NCBI RefSeq assembly: GCF_000439085.1
Contig: NZ_AUUA01000001.1
Span: forward strand, 62,001 to 126,000
Direction of reading: 5' to 3'
From: Leminorella grimontii ATCC 33999 = DSM 5078
GTDB taxonomy: Bacteria > Pseudomonadota > Gammaproteobacteria > Enterobacterales > Enterobacteriaceae
DNA: 64,000 nt
Shown here: positions 27,337 through 31,966 of the stretch, piece by piece
Position numbering within the stretch: the first letter of the stretch is position 1
Layout: each line of letters starts with the position of its first letter
Notes under the pieces: model-generated
What the model was told of the DNA's origin: nothing
What the model saw: the letters and a program-made list of their open reading frames with translations, nothing else
Database searches by the model: none
Made by a program: the position numbers and the translations under genes

Positions 27337-27546
27337 TTAAATAGCAGGAGCGCCTTCCGTAATTTTCCTTTGTATTATCAGCTGCATTCTCCTGATTTTA
27401 TGCTCAGTAATATCGCGAAGCGCAACAGTTTTGTAACATCTTGAACATATTGCCCCATGTATATCATCCAGGGTTTTTACCGGATGATTTGAGCGGAATG
27501 AGTCGCAACCACACTTTGAGCATTGAAACGTAAAGTCAGGACACAT
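27337..27546 (-). CDS. Small zinc-ribbon protein
   Basis: 69 residues from ATG 27546 with GAGAGGTTTCT upstream. FQCSKCGCDSF and AICSRCYKTV supply two CxxC pairs that probably hold one zinc ion; the end is a charged helix. It resembles the small putative zinc-binding proteins (ECs_2282-like) found in enterobacterial accessory regions and prophages. No nearby phage genes. Confidence 0.65.
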   Translation of the reverse strand: MCPDFTFQCSKCGCDSFRSNHPVKTLDDIHGAICSRCYKTVALRDITEHKIRRMQLIIQRKITEGAPAI

Positions 27547-29332: not shown

Positions 29333-29363
29333 AAAATAAAACCGCTTTCCTTGAGGAAAGCGG
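29333..29363 (-). terminator. Terminator of the rtcB-prfH operon
   Basis: On the minus strand: CCGCTTTCC, loop TCAA, GGAAAGCGG, then TTTTATTTT. Twenty bases after the prfH stop. Confidence 0.88.
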
Positions 29364-29383: not shown

Positions 29384-29998
29384 TTATGCCGGTTTAAATG
29401 CTTCACCTTTAAACACTAAAGACGGATTTCCTCGTTCAATATGATGATGGAAAAGACGGCGCTCCGCCTTTTGCGTCGAGATGGCCTGCTGTTCCAACTG
29501 GCTCAACCGGTGGGATATCAACAAAACGGCGAGCTTTTTGTTGGCGTGCTGGCTCCGCTCGGACTGCACCTTCACGCTGATACCGCTGGTTGAATGCGTT
29601 GCTCTGATCGCTGAGTCCGTCTTATTAACGTGCTGCCCGCCTGGGCCAGACGCCCTAAGCGTTTCAAAGCGGATTTCGCCTTCCAGAGCGGAGCTAGGCC
29701 GTTCGAAGCGAGCGATGCCGATATACCAGTTTTTACGCCCGTAGTGGGGGCGATAGGGGCTTTGACATGTCCACAGCAGGGCGCCGCACCAGCGTTTTGC
29801 CAGCTTTTCGGCACTTTCGCCATAAAGGGCTACCAGCGCCGAGCGCAGAGTGCCCCGATGTCGTCCCGGTTCTAGTTCCAGACGTTCCAGCTTCACATTT
29901 GACGCATCGGCTTCTTTATGCAGTCTGTCCAGCGCCTTACTAACGGCCAGGCAGCACTCTTCCGGTCCTTGGGCAGAGGAGAGTTGTAGCAATATCAT
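29384..29998 (-). CDS. prfH: Peptide chain release factor homolog PrfH
   Basis: 204 residues. It keeps the catalytic RF domain: [20 protein letters not shown] with GGQ at 120-122, then [15 protein letters not shown]. It lacks the stop-codon-reading domain of RF1/RF2. PrfH is encoded with RtcB-type ligases; as I recall the literature, PrfH releases the peptide from ribosomes whose 16S decoding centre has been cut (colicin E3-like damage) and the ligase reseals the rRNA. Its ATG overlaps the rtcB stop by 4 bases, so the pair is translationally coupled. Confidence 0.93.
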
Positions 29999-31134
29999 TC
30001 GCTTTTTCCTCCGCTCGTCTTGTAGGTCAACATCGGCTTAAGGCGGGCGATTGGAACGACTAAACCTGCGCCAGTCAGGGTATCTACTACGCTGTCTATT
30101 GACTTATAGGCCTGTGGCGCTTCTTCATAAATAAGCTGCCTGTCCTGACAGATGACTCTGCTTCCCATTGCCGTTCGGCTCAGCTGTTCTGGCGTAAAGC
30201 GTGCCGACAGCCGGTTTTTACAGTCAGAACGCATCCATTTACGGCCTGCGCCGTGGGCGAGTGAATGGAGGCTGCTTTCTGATAACCGTGGCTTAACCAG
30301 ATAGCTATAGTCGCCTCGTGAACCGGGTATAATAACGGCACCCCGGTCGGACGGCGTCGCACCCTTACGGTGTAGCCAGCCATCGCTGCCGCCTATTTTG
30401 CTCGGCTCAACCAAATTATGATGAACGTCGACTATCCGTTGACCTTCAGTTCTGATTTGTTCCAGCATGCGCAACGCGATCAGGCGCCGATTTTCTTCAG
30501 CAAAGCCTAACGCCTGCCGGTGAGCGTCAAGATACTGCTTTGCATCTTCGCCGTTTTCGAGCAGGCCGCGGTGGCCAAAACGTTCAACGTGATCGCGCAA
30601 GATAGCCTGTCCTAATCCGCGTGAGCCGCTGTGTACTAACAGCAGTAGGGCGCTTGCATCAATTGAAAGCGCCTCTGCTTCATCGCTGTTGTAAACGGTA
30701 TCAACCGCTTGCAGTTCGGCAAAGTGGTTGCCGCCGCCGATAGAGCCCAGCGAGTTATAAAAGGGATGTTGCTGCATCGACGACAGGGCGTACGTTTCCA
30801 GCCATTCCGTCGCAGCAAAATCACCAAGGCCGGACAGCCTCTTTTCAAGCTTATCCAGGCGGGCCTGCTTTAACGTCATAGACGTTTGCCAAAGCCCCAT
30901 GCCGCAACCAATGTCATTGCCTACAAGTGCAGGGTAGAAGCAGCCCGTGGAGAAAAATGCGGCGCCGACGGGGTATCCTCTGCCGGGATGCAAATCCGGC
31001 ATGCCGACGACGCTGACCATTCCCGGCATTGCGGCGGTAGTTTGTAATTGTTGGATCGCTAAACCTTCGATCCAGAGGTCATCCGACGCGATATAGGATG
31101 CGCGCTCGGATAGGGGACGAATAAAATTGCCCAT
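29995..31134 (-). CDS. RtcB-family RNA ligase (PrfH-linked RtcB2 type)
   Basis: 379 residues from ATG 31134 ([20 protein letters not shown]). It joins 2',3'-cyclic phosphate to 5'-OH RNA ends using GTP and Mn2+. Motifs: [29 protein letters not shown] (metal Cys), [31 protein letters not shown] and LAHGAGRKW (His guanylylated). All active-site elements are present. The shorter length suits the PrfH-linked group rather than the 408-residue housekeeping RtcB. An in-frame ATG at 31263 has its Shine-Dalgarno only one base away and adds 43 non-conserved residues. I prefer 31134, although no good ribosome binding site precedes it; translation may depend on the leader ORF at 31211-31258. Confidence 0.9.
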
Positions 31135-31210
31135 ATACCAATCCATAGAAAGGTGAATAAAAATAAATGGAGTTGGCAGGCCGAAGCCAGGGGGAGTAAC
31201 TGAAAGGTAA

Positions 31211-31258
31211 TTAGCCCTGAATACGCCTGCAAAGGGTAATGTGTTGAACTTGCTGCAT
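31211..31258 (-). CDS. 15-codon leader ORF upstream of rtcB
   Basis: ATG 31258 follows AGGAGGT with a 5-base spacer, the best ribosome binding site of this operon, yet the frame codes only MQQVQHITLCRRIQG and stops with TAA at 31211-31213. It ends 76 bases before the rtcB start, which itself lacks a good site. This arrangement suggests a leader peptide that couples or senses translation for the repair operon. No family; coding status unproven. Confidence 0.4.
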   Translation of the reverse strand: MQQVQHITLCRRIQG

Positions 31259-31304
31259 GACATACCTCCTTTGCGGGTAAATGAATATTAAGATACAAAA
31301 TGAT

Positions 31305-31332
31305 GAAAAATCGCGCGCATCGTAGTGCGCGC
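31305..31332 (-). terminator. Terminator of the YiiX-like gene
   Basis: On the minus strand: GCGCGCA, loop CTACGA, TGCGCGC, then GATTTTTC. It lies between the YiiX-like gene and the rtcB operon, 17 bases after the stop. Confidence 0.85.
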
Positions 31333-31348
31333 CGACGTAAATAGCAAG

Positions 31349-31966
31349 CTATTTTTCTGCAACCGTATACAGCTGCCCGGCGTCGAACATCGCCTGAGGG
31401 GATATTACCGTTTCGTTTAGCGGTATGCGGTCGCCGTAGCGTTCTTTCAGCTTGGCCTTGACGGCTGGGGAATTGAGATTAAAGTCGCCCAGTTTTTGCA
31501 GTTGGCCGATGTTCATGCCTAGCGCGTTAGAGTAGATTTTCCACACGACTTCCGAGCAGTACTGACGTTCGTCAGACCAGGAAAAGGTTAAGTCATAGGG
31601 CTTACCCACATAGCGTTCTGCCGTCTGCTGTAACCGTTTTTGCTGGTCGGAGGAAAGCCCCGCTTTAACCCTCTTGGCGACGAATTTTCCATCCACGCCT
31701 CGGGCAATCCAAACGTCCAGCGGCGTATAGGTGACGCGTCTGGACGCTTCAAAAACGTAGGGCTTCTTATCGCGAATGACGACCATACCCATGTGGCTAT
31801 AGGGGGAACCGGTTGCCTGTTGGATCGCCAGGCTTTGTGAAGAACGGGAGGTGTGAAAAATGATATCTCCCGTCTGGGGCTCGTAGCCATGGCCCGTCGG
31901 AATGACGAAAGCGAGTAGCGCAACAAAAAGAAAAGCGTAAAGATAAATGTGGCGATGAGAGGCCAT
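31349..31966 (-). CDS. yiiX: YiiX-like permuted papain-fold enzyme, exported
   Basis: 205 residues from ATG 31966; residues 1-25 form a signal peptide or anchor (YLYAFLFVALLAFVIPTGHG). YEPQTGDIIFHTSRSSQSLA, YSHMGMVVIRDKKPYVFEA and SDERQYCSEVVWKIYSNALG correspond to the His (SHMGMV) and Cys (YCSEVVW) of the YiiX/YebB NlpC/P60-related hydrolases. Length and sequence agree with E. coli YiiX. Its substrate is unknown; lipid-linked or amide bonds are the family's usual targets. Confidence 0.88.
   Translation of the reverse strand: MASHRHIYLYAFLFVALLAFVIPTGHGYEPQTGDIIFHTSRSSQSLAIQQATGSPYSHMGMVVIRDKKPYVFEASRRVTYTPLDVWIARGVDGKFVAKRVKAGLSSDQQKRLQQTAERYVGKPYDLTFSWSDERQYCSEVVWKIYSNALGMNIGQLQKLGDFNLNSPAVKAKLKERYGDRIPLNETVISPQAMFDAGQLYTVAEK

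Follow-up and report, generated by a model that had tools for sequence, protein, structure and literature searches.

PA5471 (armZ) of Pseudomonas aeruginosa encodes an RtcB-like protein and shares a transcript with the release-factor gene PA5470; reviews report its induction by ribosome-targeting drugs via a 13-residue leader, PA5471.1 (PMC3516279, PMC12057347). According to one of these reviews, transcriptional attenuation has been proposed and needs confirming, and a 7-nt deletion in the leader makes armZ constitutive (PMC3516279/PMC12057347); the wording used for the armZ leader in PMC3884212 is 'translational attenuation'. ArmZ was also raised by an amber codon at leader position 3 and by removal of positions 1 to 226, comprising the leader plus the spacer, in a study whose model contains a 3:4 terminator (PMC13041342).

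In E. coli, rtcB2-prfH is reported to repair cleaved 16S rRNA and to protect against colicin E3 (PMC9223846). That study tests repair, and the words 'leader' and 'upstream' are absent from its main text. E. coli K-12 ykfJ is induced by 4-azaleucine (PMC3516279), and the segment 253317-253416 before prfH/ykfJ has been tabulated among riboswitch-like windows (PMC4448311). The toiL uORF of the E. coli topAI-yjhQP operon is described as sensing several ribosome-targeting drugs and relieving translational repression, with Rho termination as a second layer (PMC12121999). We found no other description of the rtcB2 leader outside Pseudomonas in the accessible open-licence literature. In P. aeruginosa, leader control of the operon (PA5471.1/armZ-PA5470) was already known, and most accounts treat it as transcriptional attenuation. 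The breadth of the leader and its pairing with the rtcB2 start are new with respect to the papers searched.

An rtcB2-prfH operon behind a short leader ORF

The window, the whole 64,000-nucleotide stretch of Leminorella grimontii DNA analysed here, carries a gene for an RtcB of the PrfH-linked subfamily with prfH directly after it, as in rtcB2-prfH repair operons. The operon and its upstream signals are as follows.

29342..29363, minus strand: terminator-like hairpin 3' of prfH, CCGCTTTCC..GGAAAGCGG, then TTTTATTTTA
29384..29998, minus strand: prfH, peptide chain release factor H with a GGQ motif (TIGR03072)
29995..31134, minus strand: rtcB2, RNA ligase of the PrfH-linked RtcB subfamily, 379 codons (TIGR03073)
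31211..31258, minus strand: leader ORF of 15 codons, MQQVQHITLCRRIQG, conserved in relatives, with length changes mostly of whole codons
31264..31270, minus strand: leader Shine-Dalgarno (SD) sequence AGGAGGT, 5-nt spacing, anti-SD duplex -12.9 kcal/mol
31312..31324, minus strand: promoter-like -10 TACGAT (31324..31319) and discriminator GCGCGCG (31318..31312)
31342..31347, minus strand: promoter-like -35 TTGCTA, immediately behind the end of yiiX; with the -10 it forms the best-scoring pair, spaced by 17 nt

In profile searches, rtcB2 (queried without its first codon) scored 576 bits against TIGR03073, for which the curated cut-off is 271.8, and prfH scored 316 bits against TIGR03072 (curated cut-off 166.65). 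The nearest named RtcB2 relatives among the matches listed were those of Pragia fontium (71%) and Limnobaculum (69%). By analogy with the E. coli orthologues, the enzymes of the window would be putative repair enzymes for cleaved 16S rRNA. A YiiX-family gene (yiiX) on the minus strand upstream of the leader ends at 31349, and a small CxxC protein of the ECs_2282 family is encoded near the operon at 27337..27546 on the minus strand (NF047912, 44.5 bits, cut-off 37).

An earlier sequence-only reading of this DNA had described a 4-nt overlap of the two genes, which we located at ATGA (29998..29995), and a 15-codon ORF with AGGAGGT at 5-nt spacing, which is found at 31258..31211 and 31270..31264. 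Its 76-nt gap between the leader stop codon (31213..31211) and the rtcB2 ATG at 31134 is also correct, but its statement that rtcB2 has no SD is not, as a weak GGATTGG lies at 31144..31138. The anti-SD duplex of this element is only -3.3 kcal/mol versus -12.9 for the leader, and by duplex energy the leader SD is the stronger one in 132 of 132 loci. The alternative rtcB2 start at 31263, an in-frame ATG giving a 422-aa ORF, was rejected: it looks accidental because several relatives have in-frame stops just 5' of the conserved start.

Promoter-like signals recur upstream of the leaders. Of 104 loci, 76% have a -35/-10 pair scoring at least 8 of 12 (shuffles, 31%), and 87 have at least five G/C in the 7 nt after the -10 (shuffles, 21%). 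The discriminator is strikingly GC-rich over these 104 loci, with a mean of 79% G+C over 7 nt versus 43% in the region. GC-rich discriminators are a feature of stringently controlled rRNA promoters; by this analogy, production of the sensor RNA may rise and fall with that of ribosomes.

Conservation of the leader across rtcB2 loci

Sampling the family, order, class and phylum yielded TIGR03073 members above the cut-off in 39 of 295, 36 of 394, 6 of 369 and 10 of 398 genomes, respectively (overlapping samples; the order, class and phylum searches were run at E 1e-100). We read 70 loci upstream as a first set; L071 had been excluded beforehand for a match at the contig edge, and the upstream regions of six order-level loci and two partial family loci (G148, G029) were left out. 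The second set, partly overlapping the first, consists of the best 80 of 509 confirmed relatives from named beta- and gammaproteobacteria. Together they give 132 unique regions, three of them from plasmid-collection records.

A leader ORF with an SD precedes rtcB2 in 64 of the 70 loci of the first set and in all of the best 80 of 509 relatives, 78 by rule and two (L136 and L138, with an SD spacing of 12 nt) by eye; the latter count scores ORF plus SD, the arms described below being less clear in some betaproteobacteria. The six loci of the first set without a leader with arms (L070, L072-L076) belong to distant lineages, and ORFs seen at L070, L072 and L076 were set aside as chance. The pattern of an ATG with 12-19 codons and GGAG was present in 142 of 150 rtcB2 loci (the 70 and the best 80 of 509), versus 1.1% of 3000 dinucleotide shuffles, so that the comparison of leaders across rtcB-prfH loci that the sequence-only reading had suggested as a check came out in favour of conservation. 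Leaders occur in Pragia, Limnobaculum, Providencia, Citrobacter, Klebsiella, Escherichia, Serratia, Pectobacterium, Xenorhabdus, Pseudomonas, Chromobacterium, Ralstonia, Achromobacter, Massilia and Neisseria. In having a leader ORF of 13-15 codons before rtcB2-prfH, the window resembles PA5471.1, whose leader of 13 codons likewise precedes an RtcB-family gene followed by prfH. Given the 142 of 150 loci and the covariation of the arms, we give practically no weight to the view that the ORF is a non-regulatory relic or arose by chance.

E. coli has the orthologous enzymes and the same leader before rtcB2. A 301-nt stretch containing it is found at a cover of at least 80% in 5328 of 5426 E. coli genomes, a count of coverage and not of leader integrity, and in K-12 the leader MTNPLSMTLCRPFQD, at NC_000913.3 253239-253286, is retained intact before the ykfJ/prfH pseudogenes. 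The rtcB2 gene is in pieces through a frameshift, contig break or deletion in G029, G148, G259, G279 and E. coli K-12, and the leader is nevertheless present in G029, G148, G259 and K-12; because it persists in genomes with fragmented rtcB2, the leader may survive the decay of the genes for some while. A search of Rfam with 31000-31400 of the window returned only OmrA-B (E 0.53, below the gathering score), and eight loci gave no match at the gathering score.

An RNA word is kept in different reading frames

The RNA elements in and around the leader are the following.

31268..31274, minus strand: arm A, GCAAAGG, 5' side of helix P1, overlapping the leader SD
31229..31235, minus strand: 3' arm of P1, CCTTTGC, inside the leader ORF
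31225..31230, minus strand: core of arm B, GCAGGC, 5' arm of P2, sharing GC with P1
31176..31181, minus strand: core of arm C, GCCTGC, 3' arm of P2
31169..31176, minus strand: continuation of arm C, CCAACTCC, 5' arm of P3 (sequestor)
31138..31144, minus strand: arm D, GGATTGG, the weak rtcB2 SD, 3' arm of P3

We located the word TT(T/G)GC[AG]G or TTGC[AG]G in 110 loci. ATG-GC[AG]G distances are 22, 25 or 28 nt at 96 of these loci and 37 nt at one, all in one frame, and leader length in this large group therefore varies by codons. The distance is 24 nt in 12 loci, which is another frame, and 23 nt in one, the third frame, giving 97, 12 and 1 loci by reading frame. In 92 of the 110, the stop codon comes 17 nt behind the G of GC[AG]G. 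Translation of the word gives Leu-Cys-Arg/Gly in one group and Phe-Ala-Gly in another; because one word is decoded as different residues, we regard it as an RNA arm inside a real ORF.

TnaC and Erm leader peptides are known to arrest the ribosome, and the end of the rtcB2 leader peptide (TLCR-x-x-Q-x-stop) could do likewise. The peptide end is indeed similar within Enterobacteriaceae and within Pseudomonas, and in a cca mutant of P. aeruginosa Q3 and F4 are reported to be important (PMC13041342). In wild-type P. aeruginosa, however, Q3K and F4L did not raise ArmZ (PMC13041342), the conserved residues lie in paired arms, and the word is retained while its frame differs. Arrest by the peptide is hence very improbable, and a conserved peptide was rejected as the sensor on the grounds of the differing frames. 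What is kept appears from these alignments to be the RNA word and not the peptide, which is new with respect to the literature searched.

Pairing of the leader arms with the rtcB2 start

In most loci the arms follow the scheme A:B (P1), B:C (P2) and C:D (P3), in which the helices overlap. The B word is missing in 9 of 132 unique loci, even with a loosened pattern, and the full six-base complement C was not found in 9 of the 123 loci with the B word. Most loci have arm C about 32-60 nt 5' of the rtcB2 ATG (90-240 nt in the exceptions), despite a gap between leader and gene that ranges from 60 to about 290 nt.

Covariation is clear for B:C and C:D and weak for A:B. We aligned 57 of 68 chosen loci (gap at most 105 nt and motif present, out of 132 unique), omitting 11 that were mostly near-duplicates (L012, L031, L035, L039, L057, L103, L109, L110, L120, L122 and L144). 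In these 57 sequences, 99.1% of the P2 cells are paired, with the arm variants GCAGAC/GTCTGC, GCAGGC/GCCTGC, GCGGGC/GCCCGC, GCGGAC/GTCCGC and others. Double-changed cells number 28 versus 7.3 in shuffles, and the covariation score is 0.328 versus 0.188 (0 of 500 shuffles as good for either). Two of five P2 measures did not exceed the shuffles, namely pairs with a double change (3 versus 2.5; 280 of 500 shuffles) and further pair types (7 versus 5.6; 56 of 500). Shifting the partner by one column lowers P2 pairing to 29-45%.

We also swapped partners between loci, using 27 (P1), 13 (P2) and 50 (P3) distinct arm pairs, in permutations that ignore relatedness. The real pairing was matched in 47, 1 and 0 of 5000 permutations for P1, P2 and P3, respectively. 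For P1, 204 of 243 cells are paired (best of 2000 permutations, 203), and the Watson-Crick count of 187 was reached by some permutations (best 189). For P2, 76 of 78 cells are paired (best permutation 76), with 72 Watson-Crick pairs (best 70).

In the plain fold of the window, P1, P2 shortened by two pairs, and P3 all coexist, P1 and P2 sharing only GC; because the fold holds the three together, competition of the arms is only partial there. The window leader fold is not unusually stable, with a z of -1.13 and an equal or better stability in 26 of 200 shuffles.

Some E. coli and relatives (L011, L078, L096 and L310) carry an insert in the C-D loop with arms C and D intact, which lengthens the gap from 64 nt (L077) to 120 nt (L011 and L078) or 192 nt (L096, K-12). 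A degenerate A..B pattern scanned over 285 whole genomes of the family matched 41 places, 20 of which are leaders at rtcB2 loci; the other 21 compare with 19 for a reversed-pattern control, and the only match in the source genome is the leader. In viral contigs scanned with the pattern, among the 80 loci listed, no rtcB2 or prfH match was found at E 1e-5, and one (L239) has a leader-like ORF by pattern.

The predicted opening of the rtcB2 start depends on ribosome position

We placed a ribosome footprint on the leader in constrained folding and computed the energy needed to expose the rtcB2 start. Medians over 64 loci are 11.0 kcal/mol for the free RNA, 9.1, 9.6, 10.3 and 9.0 with the ribosome at codons 1, 2, 3 and 4, and 12.0 with the ribosome at the stop codon. 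The difference between codon 1 and stop is below -1 kcal/mol in 47 of the 64 and above +1 in one. It averages -2.99 in 44 real loci versus +0.25 to +1.05 per replicate when leader body and spacer are shuffled. A second set of 67 regions, non-identical to the first but including some close relatives, gave a mean of -3.23 (54 below -1, 2 above +1) versus -0.12 to +0.62 in shuffles. Over 83 loci the mean cost is 11.8 kcal/mol free, 9.7 at codon 1 (the cheapest position) and 13.3 at the stop (the dearest), and the effect holds with three footprint sizes. When B is masked and the ribosome sits at codon 1, the start becomes more than 1 kcal/mol dearer to open in 79 of these 83 loci (mean +3.98), versus 21 of 83 for a six-base control mask (mean +0.81). 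In the window itself the costs are 13.3 (free), 9.8 (codon 1) and 12.6 kcal/mol (stop). The folding thus predicts that an early stall opens the ribosome-binding site and a finished leader closes it, with a cost that stays at about 9-10 kcal/mol even in the open state.

The effect is only -0.9 for codon 1 minus stop in P. aeruginosa PA7, is reversed in L090 (+1.7) and L151 (+1.1), and is small for most of the 11 loci whose gap measures 267-295 nt (L056, L058-L067). These 11 loci (genus g194 of family f27, which we guess to be perhaps Orbaceae) keep the leader and arms A, B and C, with arm C 213-239 nt from rtcB2; the mechanism may differ there.

The sequence-only reading had proposed that ribosomes with damaged 16S rRNA fail to start the leader through its SD, and that the untranslated leader switches the operon on. 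The stronger SD of the leader in every locus speaks for such a switch, but the folding predicts no opening of the rtcB2 start without a leader ribosome, the mean cost remaining at 11.8 kcal/mol versus 9.7 at codon 1 in the 83 loci, and we consider failed initiation quite improbable. Because the start is costly without a ribosome and cheapest with one at codon 1, the predicted signal is a stalled or slow ribosome rather than an absent one. The increase of ArmZ by an early amber codon in P. aeruginosa is the outcome that stall sensing predicts. Translation of the leader and control of the operon by it, also part of the sequence-only reading, are supported by the conservation and by the Pseudomonas experiments on PA5471.1, but the folding speaks against the proposed sensing step.

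Intrinsic terminators are not enriched in the leaders

In transcriptional attenuation, as proposed for armZ, leader translation would choose between an antiterminator and an intrinsic terminator before rtcB2. Beyond the published PA5471.1 model, this finds backing in five betaproteobacterial loci (L117, L121, L127, L133 and L149) where terminator-like hairpins of between -13 and -16.5 kcal/mol are followed by U-rich tracts. Terminators are, however, not enriched overall: 25 of 106 loci (24%) have one at -8 kcal/mol or better versus 26.4% of shuffles, and 8 (7.5%) at -12 or better versus 6.6%. The best hairpin with a U-tract in the window leader reaches only -4.5 kcal/mol, and what follows the C:D hairpin is the rtcB2 start codon, not a U-tract. 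An intrinsic terminator in the window leader was therefore rejected, and control of translation initiation is favoured; for the window, transcriptional attenuation appears unlikely.

The five loci belong to a group of six with a 19-codon leader, MQxNxTSxWAGxxV.. (also L150; Rhodoferax, Hydrogenophaga, Ideonella, Curvibacter and a Burkholderiales bin), in which L150 has a hairpin of -11.9 kcal/mol and the other five reach -13 or better ahead of a U-rich tract. Since these hairpins precede U-rich tracts, they suggest transcriptional attenuation in this betaproteobacterial branch.

Comparison with PA5471.1, ermC-type and toiL leaders

The leader of P. aeruginosa PA7 (L128), MIQFSTLCRLRLA, carries the Q3 and F4 described for PA5471.1 together with arm words A-D (GCAAAGGAGG, CCTTTGCAGGC, GTCTGCC and GGATTGG), an arm similarity that points to common descent of the window and PA7 leaders. 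The two systems differ in that PA5471.1 is mostly described as a transcriptional attenuator with segments 3:4 as terminator, whereas no such terminator was found in the window, nor by the same scan in PA7. The gap is 212 nt in PA7 and about 250 bp in a review, as opposed to 76 nt in the window, and ArmZ in P. aeruginosa is known as a MexZ antirepressor. In the window, arm C covers the rtcB2 SD.

Attenuators of the ermC type have a leader ORF with a strong SD and arms pairing 1:2, 2:3 and 3:4, with the ribosome-binding site on arm 4. The window has the same layout of competing helices with its last arm on the ribosome-binding site, P2 and P3 being strong and P1 modest; the likeness is to the general scheme, with no individual member compared. 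Erm leaders rely on drug- and peptide-specific arrest, unlike rtcB2 leaders, whose peptide is not kept across frames. Compared by description, toiL is alike in being a short ORF that senses drugs, and differs in serving a toxin-antitoxin operon and not ribosome repair (PMC12121999).

Proposed mechanism and implications

Because the leader is conserved, the arms covary and the folding depends on ribosome position, a stall-sensing attenuator acting mainly on translation is the most likely reading, and on the basis of the alignments and folding models we think that leader and RNA probably work in this way for rtcB2-prfH. A ribosome finishing the leader would have its trailing edge over B, leaving C free to pair with D and closing rtcB2. 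A ribosome held at the first codons would cover A and leave B free to take C from D, thereby opening the rtcB2 start, and prfH expression would follow by translational coupling. The peptide sequence itself would not be read. In the window, the block would fall mainly on translation initiation; Rho could perhaps add to it once rtcB2 is untranslated, as reported for topAI (PMC12121999).

The ribosomes that stall early would be those with a cut or drugged decoding centre. We infer that the leader is translated in L. grimontii, that stalling at early codons is the signal and that 16S cleavage causes the stall, and damage sensing by the leader would follow the same reasoning. A broader and more tentative idea, which we hold to be possible yet rather doubtful, is that the leader is a widespread sensor of ribosome integrity whose native signal is decoding-centre damage, such as 16S cleavage of the colicin E3/CdiA type, and that the antibiotic induction of MexXY is a later co-option. 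If true, a broken ribosome, by stalling at the first leader codons, would switch on its own repair enzymes.

The attenuator proposed here would account for the way in which bacteria limit their supply of enzymes that re-ligate ribosomal RNA. It also makes the definite, testable claim that the response is set by the distance of the stop codon and by arm B and not by the peptide. One kind of leader switch would serve both the repair of colicin damage in enterobacteria and, in Pseudomonas, the drug-induced efflux by MexXY.
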